In this document: piece after piece, positions 44,238 through 53,719 of the stretch | Numbering within the stretch: position 1 is the stretch's first letter | How the letters are laid out: each line of letters starts with the position of its first letter | DNA from: an uncultured Geobacter sp. | GTDB taxonomy: Bacteria > Desulfobacterota > Desulfuromonadia > Geobacterales > CAIOGM01 | Assembly: GCA_903857795.1 (NCBI GenBank) | Contig: CAIOGM010000061.1 | Location: forward strand, 1 to 64,000 | Direction: 5' to 3' | Length of the DNA: 64,000 nt | The notes under the pieces: generated by a model | Told to the model about the DNA's origin: nothing | The model's database searches: none | Seen by the model: only the letters and a program-made list of their open reading frames with translations | Program-made: the position numbers and the translations under genes

Positions 44238-44296
44238 GTAGGAGCGGCCTACGGCCGCGAATGATGCCAGAATTCGCGCCTAAAGGACGCTCCTAC
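44238..44296. repeat. REP-like inverted pair, family A
   Basis: GTAGGAGCGGCCTACGGCCGCGAA ... TTCGCGCCTAAAGGACGCTCCTAC. Confidence 0.8.
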
Positions 44297-44323
44297 GGGT
44301 TGTTGTAAATGAGTATTTCCATC

Positions 44324-52919: not shown

Positions 52920-52945
52920 TATTTGTACCTCTCGTTGAAATATTT

Positions 52946-53079
52946 GTAGGAGCGGGCTCCGCCCGCGAACTGGGTGACAAATGCATTAGCAGGCTTTAGC
53001 TGCGAATTGTTGTGCAAAAGACGGTGATCGTGCCCCGAGGACGGAATAGTCATTGTTCGCGGACAAAGCCCGCTCCTAC
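52946..53079. repeat. REP family A inverted pair flanking the RAYT gene 3' side
   Basis: GTAGGAGCGGGCTCCGCCCGCGAAC (52946-52970) and GTTCGCGGACAAAGCCCGCTCCTAC (53055-53079). Confidence 0.85.
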
Positions 53080-53094
53080 AAGAATGGATTGATC

Positions 53095-53616
53095 TCATTC
53101 AACCCAAACCGCATCCCACAGGGAATAATCCCAGATTTTTTTGACAATCCCCGCCCGAACCGGATTCATGACCACATACCGGGCAATATCTCGTAGATCT
53201 TTGTCTCCGCGGATCGCCCGATCATGAAACCCTTTTTGCCATACTCTGCCCGAACGTATCACTGTAGGATCGGGCTCCGCCCGCGAACCATCAACCTCTT
53301 CGCGGGCGGAGCCCGCTCCTACGAGGTGCTGATTCATGAAATGCGCCGAGGCGCCCTTGATCTGACCGATGAGGGTTTGCAAGGTGCAGACGTCGGTGAG
53401 AGAAAGCAACCAATGAAAATGATTCGGCATGATGACGAAGGCCAGACTCTCTACCTTGCCGGCATCTGAGTACTGCCGCATGGTATTAACAAGGATTCGT
53501 CCCAACCGGAAATCAGAGAAAATCGGACGACGACCAAGGGTAATACTGGTAACGAGATAGATCTGTCCGTCAACCGAAAACCGTCCTTTACGAAGATCCT
53601 TGCCATGGTAGATCAT
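53095..53616 (-). mobile_element. REP-associated tyrosine transposase (RAYT, Y1/HUH family)
   Basis: 'MPNHFHWLL' HUH motif, 'VWQKGFHDRAIR', 'DIARYVVMNPVRAGIV' Tyr motif; REP palindromes on both sides. Confidence 0.93.
53264..53322. repeat. REP family A inverted pair inside the RAYT coding sequence
   Basis: GTAGGATCGGGCTCCGCCCGCGAAC (53264-53288) and TTCGCGGGCGGAGCCCGCTCCTAC (53299-53322). Confidence 0.9.
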
Positions 53617-53641
53617 GGTGCGGGCATCCTTACCTCAACGT

Positions 53642-53666
53642 GTAGGAGCGGTCTATGCCCGCGAAC
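53642..53666. repeat. REP family A copy upstream of RAYT
   Basis: GTAGGAGCGGTCTATGCCCGCGAAC. Confidence 0.8.
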
Positions 53667-53719
53667 CATGAATGGCGTTATTCGCGTCTTCTCGGTGCAA
53701 AGACTTGGTGTAAAGGCTG

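Follow-up and report, generated by a model that had tools for sequence, protein, structure and literature searches.

In-frame REP palindromes of its own type within a loop of a RAYT transposase gene from an uncultured Geobacter

The window analysed here is a 64,000-nucleotide stretch of DNA from an uncultured Geobacter sp. (GenBank assembly GCA_903857795.1, contig CAIOGM010000061.1). Between sucA and sucB, the genes of 2-oxoglutarate dehydrogenase E1 and E2, it contains a locus (52920-53719) made up of a gene for a REP-associated tyrosine transposase (RAYT, TnpA-REP) and its REPs (Table 1). In the sister species G002, sucA and sucB are adjacent, about 180 bp apart and without a RAYT, and therefore the locus was most likely gained in the lineage of the window. 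The RAYT frame is open from an ATG start and encodes 173 aa. The product is recognized by the profile NF047646 (REP_Tyr_transpos) with 136 bits against a cut-off of 80 and by Pfam Y1_Tnp with 35 bits, and among solved structures its predicted fold best matches 4er8, in which the E. coli RAYT is in complex with a REP hairpin. The Y1 core with the HUH and Y---NP motifs that define RAYT/TnpA-REP proteins as class 2 Y1 enzymes is present: the HUH motif is H66-F-H68 (NHFH) and the catalytic Tyr147 lies in YVVMNP. The GTAG contact segment reads W126 Q127 ... D132 R133 ... R136, and a conserved tail continues after the Tyr motif through DYSLWDAVWVE. By these features the gene is an intact RAYT and appears to be mostly of the short, group-3 (subclass 2.5-like) kind. 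A preliminary description of this DNA had placed a RAYT with intact HUH and Tyr motifs at 53095-53666; both motifs are indeed in place and the span covers the ORF, but its end at 53666 takes in the upstream REP, which lies outside the ORF.

Table 1. Positions of the RAYT gene and of the REPs within and around it
Feature	Position	Strand	Sequence and remarks	Evidence
RAYT (TnpA-REP) gene	53095..53616	-		ORF; NF047646 136 bits; Y1_Tnp; fold match 4er8
Internal REP pair, inverted, in frame	53263..53322	-	codons 99-118 of RAYT	repeat search; alignment against insert-free RAYTs; AlphaFold pLDDT <50 at 101-110
Internal REP 1	53299..53322	-	GTAGGAGCGGGCTCCGCCCGCGAA; GTAG head toward 5' end of gene	
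Internal REP 2	53264..53288	+	GTAGGATCGGGCTCCGCCCGCGAAC; inverted relative to REP 1	
Flanking REP upstream of RAYT start	53641..53666	+	GTAGGAGCGGTCTATGCCCGCGAAC	
Flanking REP downstream of RAYT stop	53055..53080	-	GTAGGAGCGGGCTTTGTCCGCGAAC	
Second downstream flanking REP	52946..52970	+	GTAGGAGCGGGCTCCGCCCGCGAAC; CTCC variant, as in both internal REPs	

The REPs of the locus are short and follow the layout GTAG-GA-GCGGGC...GCCCGC, in which GTAG lies 1-2 nt from the stem. Three REPs with GT[AG]G heads flank the gene, in both orientations. The pair inside the gene has the stem and loop GCGGGC-TCC-GCCCGC; its arms (53264-53287 and 53299-53322) are 96% complementary, separated by a spacer of 11 nt and arranged with the GTAG heads outermost, and it is translated in frame as 20 residues. 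Flanking REPs, as well as an inverted pair at 53264-53322 that leaves the frame unbroken, had been reported before; the former were recovered at the three positions of Table 1 and the latter is borne out by the repeat search and the translation. A CTCC centre occurs in only three REP-pattern matches genome-wide, namely both internal copies and the flank at 52946. The other REPs inspected in the same genome look extragenic, as judged by reading the surrounding ORFs rather than from annotation. A chance palindrome was ruled out, because the 25-nt flanking REP finds two matches with at most two mismatches in the RAYT coding sequence, whereas the best match in 2000 dinucleotide shuffles has six. 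The RNA of the insert is predicted to fold with -54.3 kcal/mol (z = -7.2). Elsewhere in the window, at 44238-44297, two REPs of a different type (GCGGCCTACGGCCGC / GCGTCCTTTAGGCGC) form an inverted pair that is extragenic; the family of this pair is dispersed, with about eight copies in the genome, and its two types resemble the REP pair upstream of the RAYT on C32 of the genome G064.

Comparison with other RAYTs indicates that the segment was added to the protein. All 28 aligned RAYTs of Pseudomonas and other proteobacteria are without it, and a similarity search with the window protein yielded two further insert-free relatives. The distance from HUH to Tyr is 81 in the window RAYT versus 54-68 (median 59) in 33 insert-free RAYTs, which are short by about 20 codons at the insert site. 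A survey covered 369 genomes from the class to which a Sulfurimicrobium relative belongs; among the matches listed (down to about E = 1e-47) are about 150 RAYTs, none of which spans more than about 453 nt over the 146-position profile, leaving no room for such an insert, and gammaproteobacterial RAYTs with scores weaker than this limit may include insert carriers. The segment is therefore not regarded as part of the RAYT core, because insert-free RAYTs do without it, and an assembly artefact is rejected because independent assemblies show the REP-bearing RAYT. It is a real in-frame insertion of the gene's own REP type. One Sulfurimicrobium genome (G658, L028) has 11 RAYT matches.

In-frame REPs are found at the same site in further RAYTs: two copies in G064 (G064a and G064b), a Geobacteraceae MAG, and one each in G220 and G243, both from further families of the class. 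Together with the window RAYT, these five complete carriers come from four families of the class and hold 2-5 REPs each, with differing REP sequences. G064a has one REP pair at the loop, G064b a decayed forward REP and a good reverse one, the G220 RAYT three internal REPs and the G243 RAYT about five in an open frame of 225 aa. A REP-derived segment is present at this site in all relatives found at more than 60% identity to the window RAYT. When the insert columns are left out of the alignment, the tree groups the five carriers as a single clade (support 94/96), for which one change suffices with no loss inside. Of the outside groups compared, that of the Pseudomonas RAYTs with 2.5 motifs is nearest. 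Outside the clade, the RAYTs of G022, G102, G080, G147, G235 and G244 have no REP at the loop. As all close relatives carry a REP-derived segment at the site and fall in one clade, the insertion appears to be ancestral to the carrier clade and to have been renewed later.

A unique local event is ruled out by the one clade of five carriers. The self-insertion proposed in the preliminary description thus stands as an in-frame insert of the gene's own REP type but not as a one-off recent event, since carriers above 60% identity share the site and form one clade. As to the check proposed there, whether the closest RAYTs lack the insert, distant RAYTs lack it and every relative found above 60% identity has a REP-derived segment. 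The close homologs do not all encode the same segment as protein core, because the REP sequences at this site differ among them and the site is empty in more distant RAYTs. Among the RAYTs compared, no insert-free sister very close to the carrier clade was found, and the exact empty site of the RAYT insertion was not seen; no other close RAYT was found in the genus of the window. A search of viral contigs for a related RAYT gave no match, and a search of plasmids gave five matches, none above 47% identity. The loop of the G022 RAYT is somewhat longer (HUH-Tyr distance 68) and could be the remnant of an insert.

The same distribution would also arise if the loop were an insertion hot spot, struck independently in several lineages by the REPs of each one. 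REP types and copy numbers do differ among carriers, the first REP of G243 is read in a frame different from that of the other four, and REP pairs do enter coding frames near a RAYT, as described below. However, all carriers fall in a single clade (94/96) from which no loss is needed, they have the forward-then-reverse order at the 5' side in common, and several right-hand junctions (..PT-xRLGRVW) look homologous, which makes repeated independent strikes unlikely.

Selection acts differently on the two parts of the protein. In each of two pairwise comparisons, G064a with G064b and G220 with G243, core dN is 0.15 and core dS about 1.3-1.4, giving a ratio of about 0.11. The insert has dN/dS values of 0.35/0.44 (G064a-G064b) and 0.71/0.80 (G220-G243), with a ratio of 0.8-0.9; these are crude counts over few codons, with silent sites near saturation, and the contrast between core and insert is large. 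The core is under purifying selection, and the protein sequence of the insert evolves almost freely. In the AlphaFold model, most of the core has a pLDDT above 90 and residues 101-110 fall below 50. The insert lies after the helix at 79-99 and before the strand at 131-134, and it is modelled as a disordered loop, alpha-C/beta-4 in the nomenclature of PMC6006769 as mapped by the order of elements. The loop is closely followed by the W-Q...D-R...R segment; in the E. coli RAYT, the corresponding segment makes contact with the GTAG guide. On the question of loop tolerance, raised earlier, the model shows a disordered loop beside a core of mostly high pLDDT. The translated loop is presumably harmless to the enzyme.

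These data also bear on the idea that the carriers are dead or dying RAYT genes gathering REP debris, with open frames that are accidental. Degraded genes do exist: the RAYT of G018 keeps only its C-terminal third, which starts at a REP, and the left REP is collapsed (L091 reverse complement 1470-1690), a broken RAYT is present on C40 of G220, and G064 is without matching REPs outside its two RAYT loci. Nevertheless, HUH, WQ and Tyr motifs are intact in the five full-length carrier frames, and with a core dN/dS of about 0.11 decay is a very improbable account of them.

The reading that we consider probable is an ancestral in-frame insertion of the RAYT's own REPs in a permissive loop, tolerated by the enzyme, with the REPs renewed later. 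In an ancestor of the clade, two inverted REPs of the family associated with this RAYT would have entered the loop between helix C and strand 4, in frame, and the insertion may have been made by the RAYT itself acting on single-stranded DNA. The translated loop would be disordered and tolerated, and it is proposed that the enzyme core therefore stays under selection. The loop REPs would not be frozen: some would have been replaced, others have decayed or risen in number to as many as about five, and in the window they are of exactly the stem-loop variant seen in a neighbouring flank REP. Functionally, this would most simply be a tolerated selfish insertion in a permissive loop; it is possible that the mRNA hairpin mildly dampens RAYT expression.

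Renewal is suggested by the state of the palindromes. Silent sites of the core are near saturation, yet the palindromes are recognizable in all carriers, and therefore either renewal or selection must be invoked. In the window, the similarity of the internal REPs is 0.92 with the flanks of the same locus and no higher than 0.66 with those of other loci, and renewal at this locus is well supported. The internal REPs of G220 and G243 match their own flanks at about 0.8 but share REP types with each other, and those of G064a and G064b are closer to G220-type REPs than to the flanks of their own loci. Across the five loci, the matching of internal REPs with own flanks has a permutation rank of 3/120, which is only suggestive of a general rule and is therefore not counted as proof of flank matching. 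Renewal at the other carrier loci may nonetheless have occurred, and its route would be recombination with flanking REPs or renewed REP transposition.

Selection is the other possible cause of persistence. The internal REPs might be kept because they act in cis, either as an mRNA hairpin or through binding and cleavage of its own gene by the RAYT, thus limiting the enzyme and tying it to the current REP type. In this regard, the palindromes have outlasted the near saturation of core silent sites in every carrier, the predicted mRNA hairpin is strong, and the internal REPs of the window match the current flank variant. On the other hand, carriers have anywhere from 2 to about 5 of them in varying orientation patterns, a REP of G064b has decayed, and exchange with flanking REPs accounts for persistence without selection, so that a cis-acting role is held to be rather unlikely. 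If it were true, an enzyme would be tied to its own substrate.

The gene neighbourhood of other carriers provides a second example of in-frame entry. The carriers of G064 (C32), G220 and G243 are found in type III restriction-modification loci, with mod on one side and res on the other (L086/L143, L142 and L144). Near its end, the mod gene of G220 contains a 60-nt in-frame REP pair (VQSIAPEGAPTTTVGADFS; L141:1555-1660), and its orthologue in G243, with about 82% DNA identity, has a clean empty site at the same place; in G220 the gene runs from the end of contig C5 to the start of contig C35, if the two pieces are taken as one gene. It appears that REP pairs enter coding frames near a RAYT in this system.

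In-frame REPs inside tnpA-REP genes have been described by Quentin et al. 2018 (PMC6006769), whose main text calls them a 'unique feature' of subclass 2.4 and places the variable domain of that subclass between strand 3 and helix C. As in subclass 2.4 described there, REPs both flank the window RAYT gene and occur in frame within it, in the stretch from the HUH to the Tyr motif, and the internal ones occupy a variable loop where they are probably tolerated. Unlike in subclass 2.4, the insert lies between helix C and strand 4, next to the GTAG-contacting segment, and the protein has YVVMNP and a tail instead of YIxNNP without a C-terminal tail. The subclass motif NH[IFV]H corresponds to NHFH in the window RAYT; the other four carriers have DH[FL]H.

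With subclass 2.5 (group 3) of Pseudomonas and Xanthomonas, as presented in the same main text, the window RAYT shares WQ and, in the segment that contacts GTAG, a D in place of E100, followed by R, as well as short REPs with GTAG two bases from the stem and a tail after the Tyr motif. It is about 45-57% identical to the Pseudomonas RAYTs compared. It differs from this subclass in having 173 aa with a REP-encoded loop instead of about 150 aa with a fixed core, and NHFH and YVVMNP instead of DH[LF]H and YI[VI]ANP; insert-free relatives of the class with DHFH and YLIMNP also deviate from YI[VI]ANP. The 2.5-like placement rests on the motifs and table criteria of PMC6006769. Judged from its sequence, the window RAYT works like the 2.4 case but uses a different loop, and it is a doubtful member of 2.4. 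It is regarded as a new variant of a known phenomenon because it is mostly 2.5-like and uses a loop other than that of the published case. Set against the main text of 2018, in-frame REPs in tnpA-REP genes are already on record, and the different loop and the 2.5-like RAYT would be new. If the placement holds, in-gene REPs are not confined to subclass 2.4.

In-frame intragenic GTAG REPs are also known from other genes (PMC3733652), and Rickettsia palindromic elements insert in frame in coding genes as well (reviewed in PMC10969869). The palindromes of the window resemble both in being in frame, REP dimers typically adding 20-30 aa, but differ from the cases named in the main texts of these papers (uvrA, recB and others) in that the host is the transposase of the REP family itself. 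A further-reaching proposal can be made, namely that cognate REPs came to be retained inside the gene of their transposase on a second occasion, in a 2.5-like clade and in the loop by the REP-contacting segment, and that the internal REPs are functional and kept by renewal, coupling RAYT expression or activity to the current REP type. It is considered rather unlikely as a whole.

A clade whose transposase gene records REP insertions, together with a clean empty site in a neighbouring gene, offers natural before-and-after pairs. To our knowledge, mobilisation of REPs by RAYTs has yet to be proven, as has the way in which REPs spread.

Repeats were also observed beside other RAYTs. Downstream of the G244 RAYT lies a tandem array of a 20-bp half-REP unit (AAAGGAAAGCCGCTCCCAC; L112 reverse complement 1575-1695). 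Upstream of the RAYTs at L020 and L044 are long open frames of repeated peptide units, with RRQAGLPRLRQKH as the unit in L020 and a longer one in L044; these frames continue into that of the RAYT and are probably translated repeat arrays.
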